Below are positions 31,591 to 46,839 of a DNA stretch of 46,839 nt, piece by piece; within the stretch, counting starts at the first letter, position 1, and every line of letters starts with the position of its first letter. The stretch comes from Oscillibacter sp. (lineage in GTDB: Bacteria > Bacillota > Clostridia > Oscillospirales > Oscillospiraceae), in NCBI GenBank assembly GCA_017547085.1, contig JAFYQM010000010.1, positions 1 through 46,839 on the forward strand, read 5' to 3'. Under the pieces are notes generated by a model. That model had not been told where the DNA came from and ran no database searches. It saw nothing but the letters and a program-made list of their open reading frames with translations. Position numbers and translations under genes: made by a program.

Positions 31591-33462
31591 TTAGGCATTC
31601 TGCTTTCTCATATAAAACAGATCAGCTTCGTCTCTGGGAAGTACGCGTGAATAGTAAAAGCCTTGAATATAATCACACCCTGCTTCGCAGACACGCTGTT
31701 TCTCTGTTTCGCTTTCTACACCCTCGCACAGGACCTTTATATCCAGATCATGCCCTAATTTTGTTAACCCCTGCAGTAAGGCATTTCCTCTGGTAGTAGT
31801 AGACTTCAGCAAAATGTGTCGATCAATCTTGATTATATCAATCGGATAGTCGCACAGGTCTTGCAGAGACGAATAGCCGCTTCCCAAATCATCCAGAGCA
31901 ATCTTACAGCCCATTTTTTTACATTCGAGGATATTGCGGTAGGCAACTGTCGTGTTATCCATCAAAGAATCCTCTGTTAATTCGATGATCAAACAGTCGT
32001 GAGGAAACTGATATCGTTCCAACACATTCTGGAACCGCTCTGCAAAATCGTTTCGGGATACGGTTAGTCTTGTAAAATTGCAGGACATCCACAAATGCTC
32101 TTTGCCGGTCAGACTCCATTGCTCCAACTGCTTGCAAGTCTCTTCCAGAATGTAAAAATCCAATTTATCGATAAGTCCGGCTGATTTCAGCGGCTCAATG
32201 AACGCACCCGGAGATAGCAGTCCCTTTTCACGGCTTTGCCACCGGGTCAAGGCTTCCGCACCTATAATTCTTTCATTCCGATCCACGATCAGCTGCATAT
32301 AAAGCAGAAACTCATGATTCTCCAGTGCACCCAATAGCTTTCGCTGGAGTTCGATTTTGGTTGCCTCCCGGTTCAGTAATGCTTTGTCCGTAAAAATGTA
32401 GGAACAATGATTATGGGCAGCAGCATTGTAACCCTGTCGGGCGTTGAATACTGCGGTTTCCGCTGGCAGATTAGCTGTATCTATCCCAAAAACTCCAGCA
32501 CGGAACAAAATGCGGTGCTCTTCCAAAAATGTCCCTTCGTATCTATTCAATTGTTCCAGAATTTCAGACACTCGGATACTGGCAGCTTCCTCCGATGGTG
32601 CCTGAAGAGCCAGTAAGAACACACCATCACCGATTCGGGCAGTAAAATCTTCATCTGCAGCCGTCTGAGACAAAACATCAGCGGCGTATCGTTGAATTTC
32701 TTCGGCTTTGAGAATTCCTAAATACTGCTCGATCCGCTGTACATCCAAAGAGATATAACTTAAATAGTACAATGCATAGTTGGCCGGTGTGATACAATGC
32801 CGGAAGGTATTCTCAAAATATGATTGATTACCAATGCCTGTCAGTGGATCAATGAACCGAATTTTGTCGTTTTTCTTTCTGGCCTTTCTGTGCCAAAGCA
32901 AAACTGCCGCAAGCACCGCAATGATCAGAAGCAGGACACCTCCGATGATTCCGGCCCACCAGTACAGCTTCTGTTCTGGCTGCGGTTTCGGCACGCGCAA
33001 TGACAGTTCCAAAACCTGCTGCGCCGACAGATTCTCCAGGGATGACCGGATTGCTTCCTCGACCCACCCCGGGGTGATGGCTGTGAACGCAACGCAGATC
33101 TCGGTATTCCCGTCATATCGCAGCAGTATCAATTCACGCTCTGCCGCCTCGATTTCTCCCCGAACATAGGCCGATACCAGATCTACCTGCCCGTTTTTTG
33201 CAAGACGGTTCTGCTGATTGATCATTCCGGGATGAATATAGACAAATTCCAGTCCGGTGGTTTGGGAAATCTGTTTATACAACTCCGGCAGGATCCCTTG
33301 GTAACTACCCAACTGTGTGTCGTAATACTCAAAAGGGAATAGGTCTGGGTTTCCCGCCACATAGACAGTATCATTTTTCGCTGTTTCTGTAGCAGTTGCA
33401 TGATTTGGCAGCCCCAGAAGGAGTGCAACTATAAGGATTGGAACTACCATCCATTTTTTCAT
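31591..33462 (-). CDS. Membrane c-di-GMP phosphodiesterase: SBP-like sensor, degenerate GGDEF, EAL
   Basis: The 623-aa protein has a signal peptide (1-25) and an extracytoplasmic part (about 30-160) resembling half of a family-3 solute-binding domain (NPDLFPFEYYDTQLGSYQGI). One membrane helix follows (about 169-191), then a GGDEF domain (about 200-360) whose signature reads RIGDGVF and is therefore degenerate. The EAL domain (about 370-620) keeps its catalytic set: EALTRW (403-405), CNFTRL, ELTEDS, LDDLGSGYSSL, IKIDR, EGVESE and QGFYYSR. It should hydrolyse c-di-GMP, tuned by an extracellular ligand. It is the last gene of the polysaccharide operon and overlaps the coiled-coil gene by 4 nt (ATGA). 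Confidence 0.9.
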   Translation of the reverse strand: MKKWMVVPILIVALLLGLPNHATATETAKNDTVYVAGNPDLFPFEYYDTQLGSYQGILPELYKQISQTTGLEFVYIHPGMINQQNRLAKNGQVDLVSAYVRGEIEAAERELILLRYDGNTEICVAFTAITPGWVEEAIRSSLENLSAQQVLELSLRVPKPQPEQKLYWWAGIIGGVLLLIIAVLAAVLLWHRKARKKNDKIRFIDPLTGIGNQSYFENTFRHCITPANYALYYLSYISLDVQRIEQYLGILKAEEIQRYAADVLSQTAADEDFTARIGDGVFLLALQAPSEEAASIRVSEILEQLNRYEGTFLEEHRILFRAGVFGIDTANLPAETAVFNARQGYNAAAHNHCSYIFTDKALLNREATKIELQRKLLGALENHEFLLYMQLIVDRNERIIGAEALTRWQSREKGLLSPGAFIEPLKSAGLIDKLDFYILEETCKQLEQWSLTGKEHLWMSCNFTRLTVSRNDFAERFQNVLERYQFPHDCLIIELTEDSLMDNTTVAYRNILECKKMGCKIALDDLGSGYSSLQDLCDYPIDIIKIDRHILLKSTTTRGNALLQGLTKLGHDLDIKVLCEGVESETEKQRVCEAGCDYIQGFYYSRVLPRDEADLFYMRKQNA

Positions 33463-33983
33463 ATTTCACTATCCTCAAAATCTTGTCGCAAACTTAGAAA
33501 TTGCTCCGCAAATGTGTTCAAAGCATCATCCGTCCGGTTGGCCAGTATCGCCATATCTTCCCGAAGCTTAACAATAGCCCCGGTGTATAACTCGAGCTTT
33601 TGGGTCTGGGCTTGACCCTTTGTTTTAATTTCCAGAAGAAGCTGATCCGTTTCATTTTTGGCCTGGGAACGGAGCTGTTCGGCTTCCTCTTGGGCCTGCT
33701 GGAGAAGCTCTGCGGCTTCCTCCTGGGCTTGCTGGCGGAGTTGCTCAGCATACTGTCCAGCCTCCAGCAGCATGGTACCCACATCGCACGCGTTTTGCTT
33801 GAGGGCAGCCAGTTCTGCCTCCAGATCGTCTATCTTCTTCTGCAGCCTTGAACGTTCTTCGCGGAAAGAGTCTGCTTCTGCCATAAGCTTTGCATTGAAC
33901 TCTTCATTCATTGTGGCAATGTATTGGCAGACACTGATTTTGGAATAGCCAAACAGGGCACTTTTCAGAATTTCCTTGTCCAT
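33459..33983 (-). CDS. DivIVA-like coiled-coil protein
   Basis: The 174-aa soluble protein has an N-terminus (about 1-30, SALFGYSKISVCQYIATMNEEF) recalling the DivIVA/GpsB membrane-curvature domain, in which a GYxxxxVxxY pattern is common. A long coiled coil rich in Q, E and A follows (about 35-135), with the near-repeat QQAQEEAAELLQQAQEEAEQLR-like pattern (units QQAQEEAAEL and QQAQEEAEQL). The frame is open 13 codons upstream, but ATG 33983 has AGAGGT just before it. It sits 10 nt after the glycosyltransferase and overlaps the EAL gene. A scaffold placing the polysaccharide synthase at a pole or septum is my inference. Confidence 0.72.
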   Translation of the reverse strand: MDKEILKSALFGYSKISVCQYIATMNEEFNAKLMAEADSFREERSRLQKKIDDLEAELAALKQNACDVGTMLLEAGQYAEQLRQQAQEEAAELLQQAQEEAEQLRSQAKNETDQLLLEIKTKGQAQTQKLELYTGAIVKLREDMAILANRTDDALNTFAEQFLSLRQDFEDSEI

Positions 33984-33993
33984 AATACACCTC

Positions 33994-35421
33994 TCACTTG
34001 ATATTGATTTTTTGACGTTCAATACGTCCCCAATTCAGCTTTTTCTTTTTATAACCGATGAATGCTGTCGCGCGGACAAAGGCCATGAAAAAACGAAGAA
34101 TGCAAACTTCAAAGAAGCACAGCAGTACTGCTTTCACTACGTCCATGAAGGTGATTTTTAAATCTATGGTTTGGATTCTGGCAAAAAAGGCTGTTAGTGT
34201 CAGCACGCAATTGTACAATGCGTAAATTAAGAAGAACAGTACCATAAATGGCACATTGATCAGATCTACTGTAAAGGCTAAAATCATGGTGATTACGCCA
34301 AATATCTCAATAAAGGGGGATAGCAGCTCATAAATCAAAAAGTAAAAGTAGGAAATAAAGCTGACGGGGCCAAATTTGGGGTTAGCCAGCATCACCCTGT
34401 GCTTCCACATACTCTGAAACAAGCCAAGATGCCACCGTTTGCGCTGTTTACGCAAATCCCGAAACCGTTCCGGCACTTGGGTCCAGCAGATGGCATCGGT
34501 AGCATACTTAATTGCATAGGGCATGTCGTTTGTGACACAGTATTCGTGAAGCTTTACCACCAATTCCATATCCTCGCCCATGGTAGAGTGGTCGTATCCT
34601 CCGGCGGCGATGACCACATCTTTTTTAAATAGGCCAAAGGCACCGGATATGATCAGCGAACCGTTGAATTTATCAAACAGGATCCGGGACGCAAGGAAGG
34701 AACGATCATATTCCAGCACCTGCATACACGCCAGAATGTTATTAGGGAGATGATAGTCCACCACCCGTCCCCGTTCCAATGTTGCACCATTGCACGAACG
34801 GATCACGCCGCCGACCGCAACCACATTCTCCTGCTCAAGGATCGGACGGACGATTTTGCTTAAAGAGTCATACTGGAGCACCGAATCTGCGTCCATACAA
34901 ATGAAATAGGGATACCGGCAAGCATTGATGCCCATGTTCAAGGCATCTGCTTTTCCGCCGTTTTTTTTGCGGATCAGAGTCAAGGGGACCTTCTGTGCAG
35001 TCGTTTCGTAGATGAATTCCGCAGGTTGGCAGGGGATTTTTCGATGAATCGGGCGGCGGATCGGGTGCATATGGAAAGCTTCGATCAATTTTTGGGAAGT
35101 GGCATCCTTGGAGCCGTCATCCACCACAATGATTTCATACAGCTTATATTCCAGCGCCAATAGTGACCGGACGGTTTCCACCACCGTTACCTCTTCGTTG
35201 TAGCCCGGGACAACAATACTGATGGGTATGTAGTAATCCTGAAGCAGCGTATTTTTCAGTTTTTCTTGCTGCCGCTTCTTATACAGTTCAGACGAGCCAA
35301 TCACAACCGCCAGAAATAAAAAAGTGGAGTAGCCAATCATATAAAGTATGAAAAGAACATTTACCCAGTCCAACATGTTCTTGACCGCCATAAACAGCGT
35401 ATCATTTACTGACCAGCCCAA
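33994..35421 (-). CDS. Processive family 2 glycosyltransferase (polysaccharide synthase)
   Basis: The protein is about 475 aa, with one or two N-terminal membrane helices, a cytosolic GT-A domain (about 65-330) and several C-terminal helices. This is the architecture of hyaluronan, PgaC/IcaA and NodC synthases. Catalytic elements are intact: VVPGYNEE, VVDDGSKD, the DAD metal site in ICMDADS, GED before MELVVKLHEY, and QRKRW (the Q/RxxRW processivity motif). No PilZ domain is fused. The start is ambiguous. TTG 35421 has GGAGG 9 nt upstream and is preferred, while TTG 35427 is only 3 nt from it. The start overlaps the HEAT-like gene by 20 nt. A neighbouring NodB deacetylase suggests a GlcNAc-type polymer. 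Confidence 0.9.
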   Translation of the reverse strand: MGWSVNDTLFMAVKNMLDWVNVLFILYMIGYSTFLFLAVVIGSSELYKKRQQEKLKNTLLQDYYIPISIVVPGYNEEVTVVETVRSLLALEYKLYEIIVVDDGSKDATSQKLIEAFHMHPIRRPIHRKIPCQPAEFIYETTAQKVPLTLIRKKNGGKADALNMGINACRYPYFICMDADSVLQYDSLSKIVRPILEQENVVAVGGVIRSCNGATLERGRVVDYHLPNNILACMQVLEYDRSFLASRILFDKFNGSLIISGAFGLFKKDVVIAAGGYDHSTMGEDMELVVKLHEYCVTNDMPYAIKYATDAICWTQVPERFRDLRKQRKRWHLGLFQSMWKHRVMLANPKFGPVSFISYFYFLIYELLSPFIEIFGVITMILAFTVDLINVPFMVLFFLIYALYNCVLTLTAFFARIQTIDLKITFMDVVKAVLLCFFEVCILRFFMAFVRATAFIGYKKKKLNWGRIERQKINIK

Positions 35422-36514
35422 TGCCAACTGCCTCCTTCTCTTTCATGTTCTTTTGGTCAAACCGGTATCGCATGATTTCACTGGCATACCGGTCACGGCC
35501 TTCAAACACATCTATCATGTCTGTGTAATACAGTCCCAGAGCCATCAAACTCTGGGAAGCATTGAATCGCACATGCCAGTTTGGACTGTGGAGCAGCTCT
35601 TTCAAAATGGCCACAGTCCGGTCTCCTGGGTAGTTGGCCAGTGCGGAAGCGGTGATCGCGGTGTAGATCCACTGGTCGTGCTGATGTTTCTCGATAATAT
35701 CCGTTAATACTGGATAGGCGGGGGGATAGGTAAACTTGCCTAAATAACGGATGCAGCTATAAGCAATCTCATCATCAACGCATTGCGAGGTCAGCAACTC
35801 CAGAATCCGTTCCTGATGATCAGGGGATGAGAAACGGAAATAATCCACGATCACGCGCTGCATCCGATTGGAAAAACGCTCAAAATGATCCCACAACCAC
35901 TCTCCCAGTTGTTTGGTGTCCCCAGAGAAGTTCAGCAGACCGTCTGTGATCATTTTAGGATGGTGGTAGTAGCTGCTTTCATTTAAAATCCACAGGGCAT
36001 TCATCGTGCATTCCACACTGCCAATGGAATAAATTGCCTGCAGAGCGTTTTCCCGAACATACAGGGATGGGGAATAAACCAGTTCCAATATTGTATCCAT
36101 GACGATGCTGATCGGTTGACCTTGGAAGACCTTATACTTATGAATGATGTAGGGGAAGTAGGCTGCCTGAATCTCGCTTTTTTTCTTATATTCCAAGGTC
36201 AAGTAAGTAAATACAGATGAAAGTTGTCTTATATAGTCCTTAATCTGTTGGGGATTCTGAGCAAACAACTCCTCCAAAGTCTTATCAAAGGCCATAAGAT
36301 TCTTGATCTTTTTCAGCGTTTTGGACAGATATTTGCAGTGCGCCTCTGTTACAGTACCATCCTCAATGGTCTGGTGCACAATTCTAATAAAACGTTGGCT
36401 ATAGTGGTTCAATCGTTTGTCTTTTGCGCGAAAAATAAAGATACAGACAATGTTAAAACCAATCATAGCGGCGCATACTGCCAGATATGCATATATCAGT
36501 ATTTCCACTTTCAT
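35402..36514 (-). CDS. Membrane-anchored HEAT-repeat-like protein
   Basis: The 370-aa protein has one N-terminal membrane helix (about 5-28) and a basic stop-transfer (RAKDKR). The rest is helical, with HEAT-type pairs most visible at about 145-170 (SPSLYVRENALQAIYSIGS) and 320-345 (SPNWHVRFNASQSLMALG). It has no catalytic motif. HEAT arrays bind proteins, and its position directly upstream of and overlapping the glycosyltransferase suggests it is a partner or c-di-GMP-responsive adaptor for the synthase; that is inference. ATG 36514 shares one nucleotide with the stop of the preceding gene. Confidence 0.78.
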   Translation of the reverse strand: MKVEILIYAYLAVCAAMIGFNIVCIFIFRAKDKRLNHYSQRFIRIVHQTIEDGTVTEAHCKYLSKTLKKIKNLMAFDKTLEELFAQNPQQIKDYIRQLSSVFTYLTLEYKKKSEIQAAYFPYIIHKYKVFQGQPISIVMDTILELVYSPSLYVRENALQAIYSIGSVECTMNALWILNESSYYHHPKMITDGLLNFSGDTKQLGEWLWDHFERFSNRMQRVIVDYFRFSSPDHQERILELLTSQCVDDEIAYSCIRYLGKFTYPPAYPVLTDIIEKHQHDQWIYTAITASALANYPGDRTVAILKELLHSPNWHVRFNASQSLMALGLYYTDMIDVFEGRDRYASEIMRYRFDQKNMKEKEAVGIGLVSK

Positions 36515-38691
36515 TATGTATCGCTCCAGACGCTCTGCAGGATATAGTAGGAGGGCTTTAGCCGCTCGTGGTAAGTTACCTTGTTACCCCAGCCTTCCAG
36601 AGGGACCGGGCAAAGATTGATTCGGCGGTCCGCAGAAGCGGAGGACAGGCCAAAGTACATGGTATCAATGGTAATGTAGTTAATGCCGTAATGCCCGCTG
36701 TAATAGTCATCGTGAATGGCCATTTTGGACGGATCCGCAAAATTCAGCAGCTGCCAGGGAATCTTAATTTCAACATAGTCGCCGCTATGAATGAAATCTG
36801 CCAGAGAATCAAAGTCCTCATTTTCCGGGTTGGCATTTCCGTAGCGCAGTTCTCCGGTGGGGAAAGTCTCACCCAAGGCGGTTGGGTCATCCATGAGATG
36901 AAAATGCCCCATCTTCAGGATCATATCAATGCCGACAAATTCCGGCGAATCCACATCCGGGATGTTCTCTTTGTAGTAGGTGCCAAAACCGTAAACGTAG
37001 CGGCTGTAGGTGGAGCGCAGCGCTTCATACCGCTCCTGCACCAGTATTTCACTATCCTCTTTTCCGTGAATGCGAATTAAGAAGTCGGCATCGCGGTCAA
37101 AGAACAGATTTTCTCCGCTACAGAAATTACTTCCGCTTTTGGGTGTGGTATCAATGGGAATGAACAGAGTCTCTGCTTCAAAGTTCAGGTCTTTTTTGTA
37201 TACCAAAAGATAAATAAAGCGCTCGTCATACTTCATACTGAGGGAGGAATTGGCCCCCTGTACCACAATATCCTCCGCTGTCCACTCCGAAATATCGCCG
37301 TCCACATAGCTGATACAGCGATCCTTGCCGGGGTCAAAGGAAAGCAGACCGAAGTACTGTTCGTTGGTTTGATAATCCGACCAGTAGGGATTGCGGGTCA
37401 TGTCGATGGCATACATGGTATTCCAGGTGCGTTTGAACCATTCATCCTGCCAGGAGAATACACAGCATCCGGCGCATCCGGATGCAACAATGTCCTCATA
37501 GCATTCTACAATGGCATCGCCCTGCTCGGTTTCGGACATATGTCCCTGATTTCTGCCGGTGTTCGCATCCTTCTGCGCAAGTCCTCTGCCGGTGGAAACA
37601 CCGAATTCCGAGATGACTACCGGCATGGTGTGGTGATTCGTCAGTGCCGTCAGGTAAGCTCGATAGGTATTCAGCCTGCCGTCTTCATCCACAAAAGCAA
37701 GAGGATCATCGATGCCGTAGGGTGTCCAATCGGTGACATAACTTAGATAATCCGGGTAGTAAGGATAAACGTGGTAGGAAGCAAATTGACCGGAAAGAAA
37801 GCGCTCCGTGCAAAGGATCTTTTCTACATCGATCTCGGCACATTTCGTTAAATACTGGGATACTTTCTCGGGGTAAACGAAAGGGTCGGTGGTTGGCCAA
37901 CCGGACATTGCAACTAAACGTTGCTGTTTATAGCGTTCGGTTTCATACTCGATGATCTTGTCACCCACCCGGCAAAGCAGTGTCTCAAAAGCAGAGACCT
38001 CTCCATCCGTATACATATATTTTCCGGTGTAACTGGTATATTCCGGCTGGTCTTTGTAGTTTTGGTTGGTAAACTCCACAGTTTGACCTTCCCATTCCAC
38101 ACCTAGAATGTACCCGATCACCCACGGGGAAATATCGTGCTTATAGGTTCCGCTGCCTGCCGAAGCATAGCGTCCCAGTGAGATTTTTTTGTTTCCATGG
38201 AGTACATCCACCAGGGTACGGCAGTCTTCGATCAGGGTATCAAAGAAACGCGCGTCATAGGCATCCATGTGGGAGTTCTGTACATAGTCATTCACCCAGA
38301 CACCGTGGATCAGATACAGCGGTTCCTCCCGTCCCCGGTTGTACGCATAAAAAGCATTATAAAATTCATCCGCCTGGATGGTATAGACACGGATGGCGTT
38401 GGCACCCATTTCCTGAATGTAGCCAAACCAGCGATAATAGCTTTCCTCGTCAATGTGGAAATCCGTGGACCATTGTCCCGGCTCGCCGGAACCAATGTTG
38501 ACACCTTTGATTTCAAAGTTCTCCCACTGACCATCCTTTAAAATCCGGAACTCCATTCCCTCGGTTTTGACAAAGGTAGTTACCGGTTTGCCTGGATTCA
38601 TATCAATATACCAGCCAAGGTGATAATAGGCATAGTCTCCGAAAATATAAATTGCAACGAGAGAGGAAACAATGATGATAAACTTTTTCAC
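36514..38691 (-). CDS. Membrane-anchored glycoside-hydrolase-like protein (TIM-barrel plus C-terminal beta domain)
   Basis: The 725-aa protein has an N-terminal anchor helix (about 3-20). Residues about 40-470 look like a clan GH-A barrel. It opens FEIKGVNIGSGEPG and MGANAIRVYTIQ, has GVEWEG near 197-202 at the usual acid/base position, and VISEFGVSTG with Glu362 at the usual nucleophile position. Residues about 485-720 appear to be a separate beta-rich module. I cannot name the GH family. Exported hydrolases are common partners of secreted polysaccharide systems, where they trim or release polymer. The start is GTG 38691 with AGAGGTGG upstream. It follows the CotH-like gene by 11 nt and abuts the HEAT-like gene. 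Confidence 0.78.
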   Translation of the reverse strand: MKKFIIIVSSLVAIYIFGDYAYYHLGWYIDMNPGKPVTTFVKTEGMEFRILKDGQWENFEIKGVNIGSGEPGQWSTDFHIDEESYYRWFGYIQEMGANAIRVYTIQADEFYNAFYAYNRGREEPLYLIHGVWVNDYVQNSHMDAYDARFFDTLIEDCRTLVDVLHGNKKISLGRYASAGSGTYKHDISPWVIGYILGVEWEGQTVEFTNQNYKDQPEYTSYTGKYMYTDGEVSAFETLLCRVGDKIIEYETERYKQQRLVAMSGWPTTDPFVYPEKVSQYLTKCAEIDVEKILCTERFLSGQFASYHVYPYYPDYLSYVTDWTPYGIDDPLAFVDEDGRLNTYRAYLTALTNHHTMPVVISEFGVSTGRGLAQKDANTGRNQGHMSETEQGDAIVECYEDIVASGCAGCCVFSWQDEWFKRTWNTMYAIDMTRNPYWSDYQTNEQYFGLLSFDPGKDRCISYVDGDISEWTAEDIVVQGANSSLSMKYDERFIYLLVYKKDLNFEAETLFIPIDTTPKSGSNFCSGENLFFDRDADFLIRIHGKEDSEILVQERYEALRSTYSRYVYGFGTYYKENIPDVDSPEFVGIDMILKMGHFHLMDDPTALGETFPTGELRYGNANPENEDFDSLADFIHSGDYVEIKIPWQLLNFADPSKMAIHDDYYSGHYGINYITIDTMYFGLSSASADRRINLCPVPLEGWGNKVTYHERLKPSYYILQSVWSDT

Positions 38692-38702
38692 GGTTCCACC
38701 TC

Positions 38703-40187
38703 TCAGTCAGCATTTTCGTTGTATTTTTTCACTGCAGATTCCGCAGAGAATTCCCGTACCGCATCAATATTTTGATCCATCCAGTTTCCGCGCTCAATCA
38801 GGAATTCCTTGAGTTGACTGATTGCTTCATCATAGGAACAGATTTCACGGTCTTCACCTTTTAAAAGACTGTACTCCGCCTGAAAACTATAACCCCACTT
38901 ATCAAAATTTCGCTCAATAGCAGGGCCCAGATATGCAACGGTCTGGTCAATGTAATTCATCAGGTATTCTTCGCTCAGAACACTCTGACGCAGCTCTTTG
39001 TAGCGGGTAATAATGGCTTCTGTAAAATCCTCGTCACGGCAGAGCATATGGTAAAGCAGACGGTTCTGGGTATCAAAATCATGAAGATTGACGCGCAATT
39101 CCATATAGTTGTCGCAGGCATTGTTGAAATCCCAAACACAGATTTTGTATTTGCCGGAGGTATCCTTATAAACATATGTAGAAAGTCGACCTGCGTCTAT
39201 ATTGCAAACAAATTCATTCAGAATGTAGTAATCTACAAAAGAAGGAATGTCAATCCACTGGGTGTACCCATAATCCTCACTATCATAATCATAGGAATAA
39301 AGCGCTTTTTCAAAGGCGGAAAATTCCAGTTCAATTTTACGGCGCATTTCCGCGGTCTGATTGATCGTTCCGGGGTAGATAACTTCTACGGGAATCCGCG
39401 CAACATAGGCATAATTGCCGTAGTCAGAGATCACAGAAGTGGTCTCTTCAAAGGGATAGATATCATTGACGCGCAGGATATAGCCGCTGAAGGTATTGTC
39501 CTTCTTTTTTACCTCCATCGTCAGCCGGGAGCCGTCATAACCCTTGGTGATGCTCTCCGTCATCAAGTATAGCCCCTGATAACTGCCGTCAATGACCACT
39601 TCGCAGAAGCGGACATTGGGGGCATACTCCATGCACTCTCCCGCGAGGTTGTACATCATATAATTGCGGATTAAAGACTTATCCAGAAAGGGGCCGTGGA
39701 GCACCCACTCATGGTGGGCATCCATTCCCATAACGGATTGATTGTTGTTGGTGCCGTCATCATAGATCAGCGTAATGCGGTAAGACTTCTTGTCAAATTC
39801 ACGGGATGAACGTCCGCGAATGTTGATCAGGACCGAGGTGGCCAGCGAAGGCGCATCTGTTACATGATGATTGGTTTCGGCATTGTCCGTGATTTCCAGA
39901 GATGCCTTAAGACGGGGCTCATCCGCTTCAGTGACAGTATAATCCACAATAAAACCTTTATCATCAAGAACGGGAGCACCCGGTATAGGATGGCCGCCGG
40001 TTTCAATTTCCACCAAGGGCAGATGGGTACACAGGAGGTTAGCCTCATGGGAACAGGGGGCTTTTTCTCCGGCCTCCAAATGCTGGTGGATGCGGCTCTC
40101 TTTTCTCTCAAAGTCTACCACAGTCGCAGTTGCTGCCAATCCAACACACAGCGCGCAAACCAGCAGGCCGATCACGATCCGTTTCAT
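38703..40187 (-). CDS. CotH-family secreted protein kinase-like protein
   Basis: The 494-aa protein has an N-terminal signal or anchor segment (about 1-24). CotH-family features are SVLINIRGRSSREFDKKSYRI-type wording (segments IRGRSSREFDKKSY), EWVLHGPFLDKSLIRNYMMY, GLYLMTESI, and the metal-binding-like WDFNNACDNY. Bacillus CotH is an atypical kinase that phosphorylates spore coat proteins; relatives in Clostridia occur outside sporulation loci. Here its substrate could be a protein or the polymer. ATG 40187 is chosen because GGAGG lies about 8 nt upstream; the frame begins 5 codons earlier. Confidence 0.87.
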   Translation of the reverse strand: MKRIVIGLLVCALCVGLAATATVVDFERKESRIHQHLEAGEKAPCSHEANLLCTHLPLVEIETGGHPIPGAPVLDDKGFIVDYTVTEADEPRLKASLEITDNAETNHHVTDAPSLATSVLINIRGRSSREFDKKSYRITLIYDDGTNNNQSVMGMDAHHEWVLHGPFLDKSLIRNYMMYNLAGECMEYAPNVRFCEVVIDGSYQGLYLMTESITKGYDGSRLTMEVKKKDNTFSGYILRVNDIYPFEETTSVISDYGNYAYVARIPVEVIYPGTINQTAEMRRKIELEFSAFEKALYSYDYDSEDYGYTQWIDIPSFVDYYILNEFVCNIDAGRLSTYVYKDTSGKYKICVWDFNNACDNYMELRVNLHDFDTQNRLLYHMLCRDEDFTEAIITRYKELRQSVLSEEYLMNYIDQTVAYLGPAIERNFDKWGYSFQAEYSLLKGEDREICSYDEAISQLKEFLIERGNWMDQNIDAVREFSAESAVKKYNENAD

Positions 40188-40222
40188 GGGGGTCACCTCC
40201 AATCCATTAAGATGATTTCTGA

Positions 40223-41644
40223 TTATCCAATATAGTCCTCAATCGGAGTTCCGTGCATTCTGGCAATTCTGCGGAGCACGGAGGAATGGGCATTGAGTCC
40301 TGCCTCCTGAAGAAAAAAGTTGGTTCTGGAAGCCCGGACGGACTCCATATTACCGCCCAGCAGCATTTGATAACCGCACTGCAGCCAGACCTCGTCCGCC
40401 GGAACACTGCGTTCGGAATAGGGGTAGGCGAAGGTAACTGCTGCCGGAATATCATAATTTTTCAGGCAGGTTTGCAGCGTCCGGAAATCCTTGTAAGCAT
40501 CCATCCGGAAATCTGCCATGGTGTCCGGTTCCCCGCAGTCGGCACCAATGCGCCCATCATGCTGGTAAACGTGGAAACCATAAGAGTGACTTGCAATTTC
40601 CACATGACCGGAGGCGGACATTTCTGCCAGCTCCACCCATGTGCAGTAGGGTGCCGTATTTTCAGCGCGCAGCTCCGGTGCTTCCGATGCCGCATGGATC
40701 TCTGTCCCGATCACCGCGAGAACCGCTTTCATGTTGTATTTCTGCAGCAGCGGGAAGGCGTTTTTATACACGCCAAGCTTACCATCGTCGATGGTCAGGA
40801 TCACCGGCTTTTCCGGCATTTCACCCTGTCCGCTCAGATATTGGGCCAGCTCCCGGACGGTGATCGTGGTATATCCGTTTTCCTGAAGCCATTTCAGGTC
40901 ATGCTCAAACTCATGAGAATAGATCGCGTATTCGTCAAAGGCGATTCCGCTGTTCAGATCTTCCTGCGTAACGAACTCATGATACATCAACACCGGCACA
41001 CCAAAAACTGTTTTCGGATTTGTATTTTCTGCCGCGATCTCCGATTCCGCCGTCTCACCGTCTGTTCCTGCTGCCAGCACCTTATAATAGTAACTGCCAT
41101 TTTCAGAGGCCGCGATATCATAGTAAATATGATCTGCGGTCTTGCCGATAGTGATCCAGTTGCCGGATGCATCCTGCCGCAGGATTTCATATTCGCAGTC
41201 TGTATTCTCATCTGAGAAGAAAAGTACATTGGTAGCCATATCCAGCCGTGATACCGATGTGATCTTCGGTGGGGAAAGAGAAATAGACTCCGCTGGAACT
41301 GCTGCTGCAAGGAAAATTATGCCGGCAGATTCTCCGTGAGGCCCCAGAGCCGTAACCTGATAGTCGTAGCTGCCCGGTTCCGGCTGCGAATCGGTATAAT
41401 ACGCCGCCTCCGTATCGGTAACAAACTTAAAATCAGCACTGCCGCTGATCCTGCGGTATACACGGTAGCTGATTGCGTCATCTACCGGCTCCCAAGAAAG
41501 AAGTACACTGTTTTTGCCATTTACAACGACCTGGAGGGACTCTGGGCATTCCGTCACCTGAGCGCTGCAACCGGATAAAGTCAATCCTATCAAGAGGAGA
41601 CAGGCTGCTATAAAAACGCAGCGGTTAATTGGAAACTTCATCAT
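40223..41644 (-). CDS. Lipoprotein with FN3-like domains and a NodB-type polysaccharide deacetylase
   Basis: The 473-aa protein has a signal peptide with lipobox LSGC (Cys26). Two fibronectin-III-like modules follow (about 33-115 and 125-208), then a C-terminal CE4 domain (about 215-473). CE4 motifs are VPVLMYHEF, TIDDG (284-288, usual TFDDG), the zinc ligands in SHSYGFH (352-358) and FAYPYS. It should N-deacetylate a GlcNAc-containing polymer outside the membrane, as IcaB and PgaB do. Partial deacetylation makes such polymers cationic and adherent. It overlaps the DUF4956 gene by 20 nt and lacks a strong ribosome binding site, so translation is probably coupled. Confidence 0.9.
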   Translation of the reverse strand: MMKFPINRCVFIAACLLLIGLTLSGCSAQVTECPESLQVVVNGKNSVLLSWEPVDDAISYRVYRRISGSADFKFVTDTEAAYYTDSQPEPGSYDYQVTALGPHGESAGIIFLAAAVPAESISLSPPKITSVSRLDMATNVLFFSDENTDCEYEILRQDASGNWITIGKTADHIYYDIAASENGSYYYKVLAAGTDGETAESEIAAENTNPKTVFGVPVLMYHEFVTQEDLNSGIAFDEYAIYSHEFEHDLKWLQENGYTTITVRELAQYLSGQGEMPEKPVILTIDDGKLGVYKNAFPLLQKYNMKAVLAVIGTEIHAASEAPELRAENTAPYCTWVELAEMSASGHVEIASHSYGFHVYQHDGRIGADCGEPDTMADFRMDAYKDFRTLQTCLKNYDIPAAVTFAYPYSERSVPADEVWLQCGYQMLLGGNMESVRASRTNFFLQEAGLNAHSSVLRRIARMHGTPIEDYIG

Positions 41645-42302
41645 TTTGCATCACAATATTTACATATTCCACGCCGCCCAGAGCGTAGATGCCGTTGGTG
41701 ATTCCTGTGTTCTCATGTTCTACCTTGCTGAGCAGCTTGCTGCTGATCTCGTAAATAAACTCCACCGTAGTTTCGGTGGTGTTACGCACCCGCAGGACGG
41801 CCTTGCGGTGGAATGTTTTGAAGATGTAGGCCTGAATAACATCCTGCCGATTGTAAGCAGCCCTGATAATCAGCAACATTCGGTTGTCATTTTTAATCAT
41901 ACCAAGTATAAGAACCACCAAAAAGGTAACGGTGCTTCCTATTGCAGCTACCATATAGTCGCCAACACCGCAGCATATACCAACAATAATTGTCCAAAAA
42001 ATGTAAATGCTGTCGCGGCTGTCTTTGATGGCGGTACGGAATCGGACGATGGAAAGTGCGCCCACCATACCCAAAGACAGTGCGATGTTGTTGCCGATAA
42101 CAGTCATCACTGTTCCGGTCAGCACTGTCAGTACCACAAGAGATGCATTGAATTTCTTGCTGTAAATAGTGCCTCTGTGTGAAATGGCATAGGATAGGAA
42201 AATAAAAAATCCCAACACAGCAGACATAACAATATTAACGGTCACCTCTTGTAAGGGGAGCTGTCCGGATGTCTGAAACATATTCAGAATCTCGTTTTTC
42301 AT
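41625..42302 (-). CDS. DUF4956 family membrane protein
   Basis: The 225-aa protein has about four membrane helices (about 20-140) and a soluble alpha/beta C-terminus. The core signature is IGNNIALSLGMVGALSIVRFRT followed by AIKDSRDSIYIFWTI (shown as segments LGMVGALSIVRFRTAI and DSRDSIYIFW). This matches my memory of DUF4956, a family repeatedly found beside VTC-domain and CotH-like genes but with no assigned function. It may be a transporter or the membrane partner of the VTC protein. ATG 42302 has AGGAGG about 7 nt upstream and follows the VTC gene by 11 nt. Confidence 0.85.
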   Translation of the reverse strand: MKNEILNMFQTSGQLPLQEVTVNIVMSAVLGFFIFLSYAISHRGTIYSKKFNASLVVLTVLTGTVMTVIGNNIALSLGMVGALSIVRFRTAIKDSRDSIYIFWTIIVGICCGVGDYMVAAIGSTVTFLVVLILGMIKNDNRMLLIIRAAYNRQDVIQAYIFKTFHRKAVLRVRNTTETTVEFIYEISSKLLSKVEHENTGITNGIYALGGVEYVNIVMQNDEVSN

Positions 42303-42313
42303 GGTAATTCCTC

Positions 42314-43009
42314 CTAAATGTGGGTTTGATAGGCATTCTGTCTGGCCAGAACGTATTTGCTGACCGATAGTTCGCTTCTGTTGATACTGTTCATGAGCTC
42401 GCGGATGTAGCCAAGCAAAAAACCGTTGAACTTGACCTCCATCACCACATCATAGGGATCCAAAACTGGATTCATATTCAGATTGGGGTCGAACAGGTCA
42501 AATGAACTTTCCGTAGCCACAATCTGATTGTCAAAGGTGATACGGATTTTGTTTTCTTTCGCAATGAAAGCCTTACGACGATATTCCACGATGGTCACGG
42601 GACGATAGGCGTGGATTTGCATGAAAGCATATATCTCTGCCGCAAAGGGATCAGGGTGGGTCAGCAGGGGCAATAAATCCCCCTTGATGATACGAACAGC
42701 ATCCTCTCTGCTGATTTTCAGGGACCGCTTGAGCTGCTGCACACCTTGCTTCTGCTTCATTTCCAACATAGCAAACGTCTGCTCCGTGTCATAAATCCGC
42801 AGCCGTATCTTCCGCCGCAGTTCCGTACCTGCCTGCTTTTCAAAGAAGTCCCGGTCATAGGGTGTATCGAAATACAGCGAACGGATTCGGTATCCGTGTA
42901 TGCCGTTGTGTTCATCTTGGAGAAGCGTCTGCTCCAGCAGGTGACTTTTCTGCCGAAACTCGGCTATATTGATTAAGAATTTCTTTTCTTCTCGCAGCAC
43001 CTGATTCAT
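42314..43009 (-). CDS. VTC-domain (polyphosphate polymerase-type triphosphate tunnel) protein
   Basis: The 231-aa soluble protein is a stand-alone VTC catalytic domain. Beta-strand motifs lining the tunnel are REEKKFLI, IRSLYFDTP, RRKIRLRIYD, MLEMKQKQ, IVEYRRKAF, IRITFDN, VMEVKFNG and SVSKYVLAR, giving the pattern of paired Lys/Arg and Glu residues. The yeast Vtc4 domain makes polyphosphate from ATP. Bacterial stand-alone versions are poorly characterised. ATG 43009 was chosen because GGAGG lies upstream of it; a GTG at 43036 precedes that site. A 117-nt gap separates it from the cyclase gene, in which I see nothing. Confidence 0.86.
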   Translation of the reverse strand: MNQVLREEKKFLINIAEFRQKSHLLEQTLLQDEHNGIHGYRIRSLYFDTPYDRDFFEKQAGTELRRKIRLRIYDTEQTFAMLEMKQKQGVQQLKRSLKISREDAVRIIKGDLLPLLTHPDPFAAEIYAFMQIHAYRPVTIVEYRRKAFIAKENKIRITFDNQIVATESSFDLFDPNLNMNPVLDPYDVVMEVKFNGFLLGYIRELMNSINRSELSVSKYVLARQNAYQTHI

Positions 43010-43126
43010 GCGCGCAAACACCTCCAAAGGAAACACATCTGCATCAATAAATGACCGGCAGTTCTGCGGGAACGGTTGATTTGATGTCCGACGATGCTTC
43101 CCAATTACCGAATCATGTACGATAAA

Positions 43127-44770
43127 TCAGCTGCACCCGGTTTGCTGCTTTTTGCGTTGATACATCATATAATCTGCTGTTTTCAACAGTTCTTCAAAAT
43201 TTAAGCCGGGATGTTCATTTGCCGCAGCAATGCCGTAAGAAACGGTGAGACGATCCACGTATCTTCCGCTCCACCGGGAAACCAGTCGATTGAACAGTGC
43301 AATCCTTTCCTGAACAATATCTGTCTCTGCGGTCATTGCTACCAAAAACTCATCGCCGCCCATGCGGAAACACTCTGCTACATCACCAAAAGCATCTTTG
43401 ATGCACTTGCTGACAGCAATGATCATCTCATCACCGGCCACATGACCGAGTGTGTCATTGGCCTTTTTCAGCATATCAATGTCTAAAAATATCAGATGTA
43501 AATCATTGGACGGAGACCCCATTTTTTGCTGGGCTTCAAAAATGGTGTAGGCATAGCGACTTTTCAGACCGCTCATAATATCTGTCAAGGCATACTCTTT
43601 GTACTGCTTGGTTTGGGCAATATCTTTAATCGTCCGGTTGAGCTTCACGAAAGTACTGAGCATTACCGAAGCAAGGATAATGAGTGCTGCGCCCAATGCC
43701 CAAAGCAACCAGTTTCCGCCCCGGAAATAGGCAACAATTGTGATCACCAACATACCCAGCAATGCCCATGTGCCATACCGGATCACGTCTCCGACCAAAA
43801 AGAGCTCCCGTTTCCATACCAAAAATACGGCGAAGATACCTGCAGCAATGATGCATTCCGTATGCATCAGGATCAGCATTCCGGAAAAGTCCACAAGCCC
43901 GGTCAGGAACAAAATCCATTCTGCAATCAGGATGACTTTTGCGATGATCACGATCCACCGCAAGGAAGTCAGCTTCTCTGTGCAAATAGACTTGAGGATG
44001 CCAAGCAGAGAAAGCGGCATCAAGGACAGCGCAAGATAGCTTAATGTACCTGATGCTGCAAAGGATCCGGTGGAAATTGCCCAAACATATGCTTCTGTAA
44101 AGAACCATGTACCCACAGAGGCTGCGAACAGGCTGATCCAAAGAAGAGGATGATAACTTTCCTCCGGAATTACGCCGTTTCTCCCCCAAAGCACAAACCA
44201 TGTACTGAGCGAGGCGATAGCGCAAATCAGCATAACAAGTGAAAAGACCAAATGAAATGCATTTTCTTCGAGGATTTGGAATCCATATTGCGCGGCTGAT
44301 GTCAGACGAATATACCTGATCTCGGAACGATAACCGGATTCCCGTTCTGCGATATGTATTACGATTTCCTTGCCGCTGTACTCGGAGCTGAGAGGAATAA
44401 GCGCCACATAGTGACCCATATCGGTTTTCACCATGCCAAAGGTAGACGGCAGTGCGTGAAATATTTCCTCTCCCTCCACATGCGCTGTCATAGATTTATA
44501 ATTACACATGATTTGGAGAATCGCATGATCCGGCACCTGCGGCAGGGTGCGGATAATCTGAATATTGGGATTTTCATCCGGATAATGATAAGGGAATGTT
44601 ATTTCTGACCGGGTACCGTCCGGCTGAGATAACATCCAACCATTGGATAAATCCTCGTTGAAGACATCTTTTGTGTAGGTAGAATTTTCTTCAATGCCAA
44701 TTACTGTAATCAGCATTAAAATCAAAGTTAAAGCAAAGACCCAATTTAGTATTTTACGGAATCGCTTCAA
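43127..44770 (-). CDS. Membrane diguanylate cyclase with 7TM sensor
   Basis: The 547-aa protein has an N-terminal helix (about 8-26) and an extracytoplasmic beta-rich domain (about 30-165). About seven to eight helices (170-375) in the style of 7TM-DISM receptors follow, then a cytoplasmic GGDEF domain (about 390-545). The active site is intact: LTDIMSGLKSR, FLDIDMLKKANDTLGHVAGDEM and RMGGDEF (471-475). The RxxD inhibitory site is not present (AFGD instead), so product feedback may be weak. It should make c-di-GMP for the operon. The start is TTG 44770 with GGGAGGG 7 nt upstream, overlapping a 36-codon ORF by 17 nt. Confidence 0.93.
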   Translation of the reverse strand: MKRFRKILNWVFALTLILMLITVIGIEENSTYTKDVFNEDLSNGWMLSQPDGTRSEITFPYHYPDENPNIQIIRTLPQVPDHAILQIMCNYKSMTAHVEGEEIFHALPSTFGMVKTDMGHYVALIPLSSEYSGKEIVIHIAERESGYRSEIRYIRLTSAAQYGFQILEENAFHLVFSLVMLICAIASLSTWFVLWGRNGVIPEESYHPLLWISLFAASVGTWFFTEAYVWAISTGSFAASGTLSYLALSLMPLSLLGILKSICTEKLTSLRWIVIIAKVILIAEWILFLTGLVDFSGMLILMHTECIIAAGIFAVFLVWKRELFLVGDVIRYGTWALLGMLVITIVAYFRGGNWLLWALGAALIILASVMLSTFVKLNRTIKDIAQTKQYKEYALTDIMSGLKSRYAYTIFEAQQKMGSPSNDLHLIFLDIDMLKKANDTLGHVAGDEMIIAVSKCIKDAFGDVAECFRMGGDEFLVAMTAETDIVQERIALFNRLVSRWSGRYVDRLTVSYGIAAANEHPGLNFEELLKTADYMMYQRKKQQTGCS

Positions 44771-44864
44771 TGCGAATCCCTCCCTTCAAGCGAAACACGA
44801 GTATTTCTGGCAAAAGTACCGTCTCCCAAGAGTGGATCAGCCACTTGAATTCTTTGTCAGCCAT
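44754..44864 (-). CDS. 36-aa ORF translationally coupled to the diguanylate cyclase
   Basis: ATG 44864 has AAAGGAGGA about 8-9 nt upstream, a stronger site than many neighbours. The ORF ends at a TAA overlapping the cyclase start by 17 nt. It encodes a short peptide starting MADKEFKWLIHSW with a basic C-terminus and no obvious domain. It may be a leader that controls cyclase translation, a small functional peptide, or a remnant. I recognise no homologue. Confidence 0.5.
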   Translation of the reverse strand: MADKEFKWLIHSWETVLLPEILVFRLKGGIRIEAIP

Positions 44865-44900
44865 ATGGCCGCTCCTCCTTTGTCAATGTGGCGGTTTGAT

Positions 44901-45269
44901 TCATGCAACCGGATACCGCAGATTTCGCAGTTCTTCCAAAATCTGTGCGTTTGTTGCTTCCTTGGTTAAATATCCACTGGGCTTCAGCCGCATTACGGCC
45001 TTTGCGTGTTCGCTCTCCGAACAGACGGTAACAAAAATGATATTGACCTTTGGATTGATCTTTTTAACTTTTTCTGCGAGAAAAAGTCCCTCCAATCTCG
45101 GAGGATTGATCTCACAAAGGAGTATATCGCATCCGAACTTTTCCGCATAATCCAGTGCAGGCTCTGCAGAAAGAAATGTTTGCACATCAGCATAAGGGTA
45201 TGCTTTGTCCGCATTCTCTTTCAAAGACTGCAGCATAATCGGTGTATTATCGACACATACGATGGTCAT
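44901..45269 (-). CDS. Single-domain response-regulator receiver with Asp-to-Glu phosphosite
   Basis: The 122-aa protein is a lone CheY-like receiver domain without an output domain. The acidic pocket reads VDN (Asp7-Asn8 in place of DD). The phospho-acceptor position in DILLCEINPP is Glu53 instead of Asp. The switch Thr (Thr81 in FVTVC) and the conserved Lys96 (RLKPSGY) remain. Asp-to-Glu often mimics the phosphorylated state, so it may be locked on. ATG 45269 has GAGGAGG upstream; the frame is open 8 codons earlier. It is the first gene of the polysaccharide operon, which suggests it modulates the cyclase or synthase by protein contact. Confidence 0.88.
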   Translation of the reverse strand: MTIVCVDNTPIMLQSLKENADKAYPYADVQTFLSAEPALDYAEKFGCDILLCEINPPRLEGLFLAEKVKKINPKVNIIFVTVCSESEHAKAVMRLKPSGYLTKEATNAQILEELRNLRYPVA

Positions 45270-45309
45270 TTGTATCCCTCCTCGCCAGAACATACTGAAT
45301 CAATTATGT

Positions 45310-45345: not shown

Positions 45346-45383
45346 AAAAGCGAGAGACAGATTTTCTCTGCCTCTCGCTTCAT
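45346..45383 (-). terminator. Terminator after the DUF4358 gene
   Basis: The stem AGCGAGAG (45349-45356) pairs with CTCTCGCT (45372-45379), extended inside by CAG/CTG after one mismatch. On the minus strand CTTTTTGTGT follows. It separates the two divergent-in-function units of the right end. Confidence 0.72.
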
Positions 45384-46457: not shown

Positions 46458-46538
46458 GTCATTCCTTAAATTGCAGCATAGCGCAAGTTGCTTCTGCCCA
46501 GCTATATTGCGTCATGTATACAACAAAGGAGGTTACCA

Positions 46539-46839
46539 ATGATAAGTGTTGGTATCAATGTTTCAAAGGAAAAAAGTACAGTCTGTGCTTTGAAGCCCTA
46601 CGGAGAAATTATCATGAGCCCTCAAGATGTACAGCATACAGAATCGGAACTATCGAAACTGATAAGTATGCTGCGGGAGTTAAAAGAGGAAGTACGGGTT
46701 ATCATGGAGTCAACGGGGGCATATCACCTTCCGATACTCACATACTTAAAAGAAAAAGGATTTTTTGTAGCACTTATTAATCCGTTAGAAATGAAACGGT
46801 ACAGATGTCAAGGAATCAGGAATGCAAAGGCTGATAAGA
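46539..46839 (+). mobile_element. IS110-family transposase gene, 5' part (runs off the window)
   Basis: One hundred codons are open to the window end. The N-terminal RuvC-like DEDD domain of IS110-family recombinases is recognisable by SVGINVSKEKSTVCAL, the Glu motif in VIMESTGAYHLPIL, and FVALINPLEMKRYRC followed by IRNAKADK. The first catalytic Asp, normally GIDVSK, reads GINVSK, which may inactivate the enzyme. ATG 46539 has AAAGGAGG about 8 nt upstream. The C-terminal serine domain, the element's ends and any bridge RNA cannot be judged here. Confidence 0.86.

Follow-up and report, generated by a model that had tools for sequence, protein, structure and literature searches.

Poly-N-acetylglucosamine (PNAG) systems, pgaABCD/icaADBC, combine a glycosyltransferase family 2 (GT2) synthase with a PgaB-type deacetylase and are under cyclic di-GMP (c-di-GMP) control in E. 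coli. A GT2 gene and a gene for a deacetylase that resembles PgaB likewise lie in an operon on the minus strand of Oscillibacter sp. contig JAFYQM010000010.1 (GenBank assembly GCA_017547085.1; positions 1 to 46,839, analysed as a whole and called the window below), together with genes for VTC, DUF4956 and CotH proteins, a glycoside hydrolase (GH)-like protein of 725 amino acids and a HEAT-repeat protein. Unlike in the PNAG systems, the GT2 falls in another clade, a HEAT gene stands in place of PgaD/IcaD, and the deacetylase is optional.

The VTC-DUF4956-CotH trio of the operon is shared with Gram-positive Pel loci, in which CotH, a polyphosphate polymerase and DUF4956 are accessory genes in streptococci, clostridia and bifidobacteria (PMC7112168). 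The bifidobacterial loci also encode a cyclase/phosphodiesterase, and the synthase is PelF with PelG, PelD and PelE (PMC7112168, PMC12345266), unlike the GT2 of the operon. In Clostridium perfringens, NELoc-2 (CP4_0458-0468) contains genes for VTC (232 amino acids), a 222/226-amino-acid 'tubulin/FtsZ', CotH (497), a hypothetical protein (685), HEAT (377) and GT2 (466) in the order of the operon core, and the 222/226-amino-acid gene has the position and size of DUF4956; the correspondence lies in gene names, lengths and order (PMC2879425). A resolvase is flanked there by duplicate copies of VTC and its partner, the published table lists no NodB, EAL, GGDEF, receiver or DivIVA gene, and the locus was read as chitin synthase and tubulin (PMC2879425); it was further linked with disease strains (PMC5964661). 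These Pel and NELoc-2 precedents overturn the statement of a first-pass annotation of the window that VTC, DUF4956 and CotH belong to no described synthase machine. The clostridial cellulose operon ccsZABHI likewise joins a GT2 synthase, a GH and accessory enzymes in Clostridia, but its CcsA with PilZ, CBM11-like CcsB and O-acetylation genes (PMC7710045) have no counterpart named by Pfam in the present operon.

The operon, carried here by a gut-type bacterium, is a variant among the exopolysaccharide operons that depend on a synthase; it is widespread but has received little study. We consider it likely that it is c-di-GMP-switched, of a HEAT-linked GT2 kind, and equipped with a portable VTC-DUF4956-CotH module. 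In the available parts of the literature searched, with most subscription journals outside its scope, the gene set was not found described as a c-di-GMP-controlled polysaccharide operon; sources on bacterial VTC with MgtC or CotH, and on HEAT plus GT2, did not contain the locus beyond the two Pel papers, and those examined on CotH with riboswitch and di-GMP did not describe the riboswitch reported below.

Conservation of the operon core

The relatives are the 80 best matches among at least 564 genome places that encode the 725-amino-acid protein, from 591 candidate stretches; because the best matches were chosen, the counts favour close relatives. Nearly all were Clostridia-type metagenome-assembled genomes (MAGs), many from animal guts, with one Paenibacillus. 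A core was found in the order VTC-DUF4956-CotH-GH-HEAT-GT2, with VTC, DUF4956 and CotH in 59/59 relatives evaluable upstream, HEAT in 77/77 and GT2 in 74/74 evaluable relatives, and HEAT directly before GT2 in all 50 gene orders listed. At such counts in one order, chance is no reasonable account of the gene set, and the co-occurrence that the first-pass annotation had expected across Clostridia was found. Beyond the core, an EAL gene was present in 57/60 evaluable relatives, and a DivIVA-like gene in 27/60; 19/53 had a same-strand GGDEF gene no more than 1.5 kb upstream of VTC. NodB occurs at various positions, in 16/80 loci overall and in 8 of the 50 whose two flanks are of sufficient length, and is an optional member of the operon.

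DUF4956 alone is common (195/295 genomes of the order; 64/398 in the phylum sample), and the full cassette is rarer, being present in 5/80 fetched DUF4956 loci. These 80 were the first 79 listed best-scoring matches with a start beyond 8 kb, plus one from the window's family (G194) picked by hand. VTC adjoined DUF4956 on the same strand in 77 of them, so that VTC and DUF4956 form one unit. The order sample and the contig-search set overlap, apparently at L065 = L088, L081 = L152 and L074 = L141.

For a remote set, 22 other genomes were matched in the phylum sample and 20 loci were fetched from 18 of them. The full core was present in one (L170), GH, HEAT and GT2 without a VTC or DUF4956 match in 9/20, and the GH-HEAT-GT2 threesome was lacking in 10/20. 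From this loosening of the core, GH, HEAT and GT2 look like the older synthase part and VTC-DUF4956-CotH like an addition. An annotated complete core copy without NodB, EAL or GGDEF is carried by Planococcus maritimus plasmid NZ_CP059541, on which qatC, a Qat anti-phage gene, lies near the cassette (L191, 15178-16605). A pair of receiver-containing proteins (approximately 360-400 and 840-870 amino acids) recurs up- or downstream of the cassette in L126, L127, L131, L139-L141, L154, L156 and L158, and is possibly a two-component input.

Probable control by c-di-GMP in the family

A c-di-GMP riboswitch was found at the operon start in 44 of the 68 relatives with more than 250 bases before VTC (type I in 41, type II in 3). 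Rfam placed c-di-GMP-I aptamers just ahead of VTC in 16 loci and c-di-GMP-II in 3, and a family model built from the 16 gave 41 strong type-I hits in 82 sources, 25 of which are calls of this model alone, trained on the other 16. A weak type-I match in L138 (E 0.04) was excluded from the count, and the type-II search covered the window and the 42 loci scanned with Rfam. The median distance from aptamer to the start of the VTC core was approximately 55 nt; in one far case (L108), the aptamer precedes a NodB gene that itself precedes VTC. As a control, type I only, 0/75 VTC-DUF4956 loci without the cassette were matched versus 3/5 with it. In a third set of 32 loci, the type-I model matched L164, a cassette contig, and L175, with a weak match in L171. 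The L175 element (2720-2815; c-di-GMP-I-like, 70 bits) belongs to a remote locus that has GH and GT2 genes and no VTC.

In 39/41 type-I cases, the 5′ arm of an intrinsic terminator was the 3′ strand of the aptamer itself, compared with 1.7 expected from single-base (not dinucleotide) shuffles of the downstream sequence. As aptamer and terminator are mutually exclusive, ligand binding should block termination, as in an ON switch, and c-di-GMP should turn the operon on in riboswitch-bearing relatives. The cyclase of the operon has an intact motif, and the EAL catalytic columns, each conserved in at least 58/62 rows, are intact in the last gene of the operon. With the riboswitches of relatives, these make the c-di-GMP control suggested in the first-pass annotation well supported for the family, as judged from sequence, but not for the leader of the window's operon. 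That annotation had called the last gene an intact phosphodiesterase, which holds for EAL; the gene also encodes, ahead of it, a degenerate GGDEF domain and an SBP_bac_3-like sensor (22.0 bits, under the 26.4 cut-off).

The synthase and its HEAT partner

The processive-type signature of the GT2 (DD, DxD, ED, QxxRW) was invariant in 73/73 rows, in agreement with its earlier description as processive. In a GT2 tree of 44 rows, for which 15 cassette loci were sampled, the cassette enzymes formed one clade (18 rows, support 100/99) nested in a larger clade (35 rows, 99/97) of enzymes linked to HEAT or GH, and E. coli PgaC and BcsA and two IcaA/PgaC rows fell outside. Read from this tree, the window's GT2 is a member of a separate HEAT-linked clade, not of Pga/Ica.

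The kinship with Pga/Ica suggested in the first-pass annotation did not survive this comparison. A true clostridial Pga/Ica system, making poly-β-1,6-N-acetylglucosamine with extra genes, would account for the best NCBIfam matches, which are PgaC/IcaA for the GT2 (147.8 bits) and PgaB (TIGR03938) for the deacetylase (122 bits), and for the PgaB-like spacing of the NodB motifs. It is nevertheless improbable, since both scores are far under the curated cut-offs (422.3 and 321.9), PgaC/IcaA lies outside the HEAT-GT2 clade, no PgaD/IcaD-sized open reading frame (ORF) adjoins the window's GT2, which has a HEAT gene instead, and NodB is present in so few relatives. Membership in cellulose synthases (Bcs/Ccs) was rejected (TIGR03030, BcsA, 34.6 versus 699.1 bits; no PilZ in Pfam).

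HEAT-GT2 pairs were also sought on plasmids, where 241 records had a GT2 match, 40 were listed and 15 were opened. HEAT was beside GT2 in 7 of these (H1, H4, H5, H6, H8, H12, H16) and not beside it in 6 annotated records (H2, H14, H17, H20, H24, H29); H3 and H26 were unannotated. Adjoining pairs occur on plasmids of Deinococcus, two haloarchaea, Mesorhizobium, Erythrobacter and Bacteroides, all six in the GT2 clade of the operon and 4/6 with a stand-alone receiver. In contrast to the operon, no VTC, DUF4956 or CotH is annotated in the fetched stretches, and the alphaproteobacterial pairs are accompanied by TPR or beta-barrel genes. Outside Bacillota, the Mesorhizobium and Deinococcus HEAT proteins were the only ones to match the family hidden Markov model, weakly, so that orthology of HEAT there is drawn mainly from position and annotation.

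Probable polymer sugar and the enzymes presumed to act on it

The 725-amino-acid protein was below every Pfam cut-off (best GH72, E 0.0023). When its family profile was compared with PDB structures, the GH2-type 9fz9 (E 7.5e-5) and 9g4n (E 4.9e-4) were matched. E199 and E362 were invariant in 81/81 rows, and E362 aligns with a Glu of 9fz9 whose counterpart in 9g4n is Ala. On this profile match, the protein appears to be GH-A-type hydrolase-like.

In NodB, LSGC follows a hydrophobic stretch, as in a lipoprotein-like signal. The FN3 domains earlier ascribed to it were not recovered by Pfam, which gave a GH85_C match of 26.1 bits, under the 27-bit cut-off. On the Halosolutus plasmid (L194, 5235-10559), the HEAT-GT2 pair is followed by a sugar-phosphate nucleotidyltransferase gene and glmS, a neighbourhood that points to UDP-N-acetylglucosamine (UDP-GlcNAc), hinting at an archaeal GlcNAc polymer locus. 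GlcNAc would most likely be the polymer sugar, because PgaC/IcaA and PgaB are the best-scoring curated families for GT2 and deacetylase, PgaB-type deacetylases occur among the relatives, and glmS stands beside the Halosolutus pair.

An accessory module in common with Pel

VTC residues R52, R78, R80, K94, K96, K103, R104, R154, K227 and E200 were invariant in 70/70 rows; by analogy with Vtc4, the basic residues are presumably the catalytic ones of the tunnel. In DUF4956, an R87/R89/K93/R96 cluster was invariant in 50/50 rows, and an MgtC-like region scored 22.7 bits, under the cut-off of 31.4. The CotH family matched the CotH structure 5jd9 (E 3.8e-6), with K138, D174, R179, N180 and D358 invariant in 74/74 rows. 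The predicted topology, with no transmembrane (TM) segment in VTC, four in DUF4956 and an N-terminal export segment in CotH, fits an outward task.

For a concatenated VTC-DUF4956 tree of 41 rows, 14 cassette loci and the window were used (L044, having no adjacent VTC, was dropped). All 15 cassette rows grouped together (96.8/98), beside a clade (99.9/100) that unites the two Pel loci with three further CotH-linked ones; this cassette and Pel side was split (100/100) from the pair-only loci, with which the CotH-linked L010 and L020 grouped. On this tree, one module lineage serves two unrelated synthases: a VTC-DUF4956 lineage common to Pel and a HEAT-GT2 machine, which is new. Like the separate GT2 clade, it is read directly from the sequences. 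In a 2025 paper, the authors' own analyses failed to find three-gene synteny outside Pel (PMC12345266); here, each of the 59 evaluable cassette loci has the trio outside Pel. Its order is CotH-VTC-DUF4956 in the two Pel loci examined versus VTC-DUF4956-CotH in the cassette. Besides the cassettes, CotH lay within 6 kb of DUF4956 in 5 further loci of the 80, and 70/80 had no CotH within that distance. Of the 80 genomes sampled, G175 alone had PelG over its cut-off, and CotH gave no hit in the DUF4956 locus fetched from it (L005); 2/74 DUF4956 places in the phylum sample were within 10 kb of PelG. In genome G175, CotH accompanies a Pel locus (L163), and a separate contig (L164) holds a cassette with a riboswitch and NodB in two ORFs.

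The genes in common, and the single lineage covering both, could mean that the operon is itself a variant Pel locus. We regard this as highly improbable: no PelG match was found in the window's genome (83% complete), the synthase is a GT2 and not the GT4 PelF, no PelF-like name appeared among the ten operon proteins scanned (no genome-wide PelF search was made), and G175 has Pel locus and cassette on separate contigs.

What the trio does within the preferred exopolysaccharide operon may be answered in several ways. Less likely than not, but with an appreciable chance, it serves as a regulatory add-on linked to phosphate or signalling that leaves the polymer unmodified, with DUF4956 acting like MgtC and CotH phosphorylating a synthase-associated protein. 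This would suit the sub-threshold MgtC-like region, the change in Pel amount and aggregation when SIR_1594 (the CotH gene) or SIR_1592 (for a membrane protein of MgtC-ACT type, taken here for the DUF4956 gene) is mutated in S. intermedius (PMC12345266), and the proposal of CotH protein phosphorylation as regulation (PMC7112168). The S. intermedius mutants also count in favour of the exopolysaccharide operon proposed below. With its export/anchor segment, however, CotH would act outside, and the many DUF4956 loci without CotH within 6 kb imply that the pair alone does something else. A more specific and more doubtful reading likens VTC-DUF4956 to the eukaryotic VTC complex, as its equivalent in bacteria: VTC would form polyphosphate from cytoplasmic ATP, the four-TM DUF4956 would carry it outward, and exported CotH, given the lack of ATP outside, would draw on it to phosphorylate the amino-sugar polymer as it emerges, or the polymer's anchor. 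If so, the module in two synthases would give a phosphorylated and, with NodB, zwitterionic c-di-GMP-switched matrix.

Proposed mechanism

The gene set, its order and conservation, the intact catalytic residues and, in relatives, the riboswitch with its overlapping terminator come directly from the DNA. The sugar, the ON direction in vivo, the switching of the window's copy, the feedback, the phosphate chemistry and the placement of the machine are inferred from them. In the proposed c-di-GMP-switched exopolysaccharide operon, high c-di-GMP would turn transcription on, through the ON riboswitch in most close relatives and by another route in the window. GT2 and its HEAT partner would polymerise and extrude an amino-sugar polymer, most likely of GlcNAc, which the anchored GH-A protein would trim and the NodB lipoprotein, where present, would deacetylate. 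VTC-DUF4956-CotH may modify the product or regulate it via phosphate chemistry, the EAL enzyme would remove c-di-GMP and so close a negative-feedback loop, and the DivIVA-like protein, where present, may position the machine.

Several results count against this scheme. Searches of the window at gathering score, with E allowed up to 10 and with the family model unfiltered found no riboswitch, and 24/68 relatives also have none. The upstream cyclase was tried as a stand-in for the absent riboswitch and rejected, being present in 5/22 relatives without a riboswitch versus 14/31 with one. Among the operon proteins, Pfam named no PilZ domain that could serve as a protein receptor for c-di-GMP. Because NodB is optional, the family as a whole need not use amino sugars. 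Synthases whose product is known were scarce in the GT2 tree (PgaC and BcsA of E. coli, plus two rows annotated as IcaA/PgaC), and long branches and an uneven composition were flagged when it was built; VTC matched the solved Vtc4 weakly (E 0.0094). The window's copy is perhaps switched by a non-riboswitch route, through its own cyclase and EAL enzyme.

Organization of the operon and flanking features

The operon comprises eleven ORFs, from 45293 down to 31591 (Table 1), each confirmed as first described. Between VTC and EAL, the intergenic gaps are -29 to +20 nt, in keeping with the claim of a single operon of co-oriented genes, and are longer between receiver and GGDEF (130 nt) and between GGDEF and VTC (90 nt). 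Ten of the eleven proteins were above Pfam cut-offs (Response_reg, GGDEF, VTC, DUF4956, NodB as Polysacc_deac_1, CotH, HEAT, GT2, DivIVA, EAL).

Table 1. Features of the operon and its leader in the window
Feature	Coordinates	Strand	Evidence
Strong hairpin, then T-run	45348..45380	-	3′ of promoter-like TTAACA-16-TATAAT (45425-45398) and of the stop of the preceding gene
Lone receiver domain, atypical	44901..45293	-	Pfam Response_reg 57.6 bits
Membrane diguanylate cyclase	43127..44770	-	Pfam GGDEF 82.8 bits; intact motif RMGGDEF
VTC-domain (polyphosphate-polymerase-type) protein, no TM segment	42314..43036	-	Pfam VTC 137.9 bits vs 23
DUF4956 protein, 4 TM-like segments, MgtC-like	41625..42302	-	Pfam DUF4956 45.2 bits
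PgaB/IcaB-type NodB deacetylase, lipoprotein-like signal	40223..41644	-	Pfam 57.5 bits
CotH kinase-fold protein, N-terminal export/anchor segment	38703..40202	-	Pfam CotH 201.6 bits vs 23.8
GH-A-type glycoside-hydrolase-like protein, 725 amino acids, N-terminal membrane segment	36514..38691	-	PDB profile match
HEAT-repeat protein, N-terminal TM segment, presumed synthase partner	35402..36514	-	Pfam HEAT_2 46.7 bits
Processive-type GT2 synthase (DD, DxD, ED, QxxRW), 5 TM-like segments, no PilZ	33994..35427	-	
DivIVA-like coiled coil	33459..34022	-	Pfam DivIVA 38.2 bits vs 28
SBP_bac_3-like sensor, degenerate GGDEF, EAL phosphodiesterase	31591..33462	-	Pfam EAL 206.1 bits

The lone receiver of the first-pass annotation retains its Response_reg domain but not its phospho-acceptor: in an alignment with 8 other stand-alone receivers, Glu replaces the Asp. 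Its acidic pair is one acid short. The hairpin is an inverted repeat with a fold of -25.2 kcal/mol (z -5.86; 0/200 shuffles as good) and would be the terminator of the upstream gene, or possibly a leader attenuator. Promoter-like sites in the scan were no commoner than in shuffles, and the promoter scan did not list the hairpin.

The G+C content of the operon (31591-45293) is 47%, compared with 56% at window positions 1-31000, and the closest GT2 in the tree is that of a Pseudobutyrivibrio MAG (78% identity); from both, the operon was likely acquired recently. An IS110-family transposase gene (Pfam 79 bits) lies upstream of the operon at 46488-46838 and runs past the window end, and five tRNA genes are clustered at the opposite end (7-530).

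Implications

A gene set that is common but had gone unread, its marker protein being encoded at so many genome places, becomes a testable exopolysaccharide system, and C. perfringens NELoc-2, whose genes were taken in 2010 for 'chitin synthase' and 'tubulin', gains a likely function. As VTC-DUF4956-CotH is not peculiar to Pel, the role of the trio can be sought in two unrelated machines. Judged from its genes, the operon is very likely to build and modify a sugar polymer of the cell surface, controlled by a signal molecule of bacteria.

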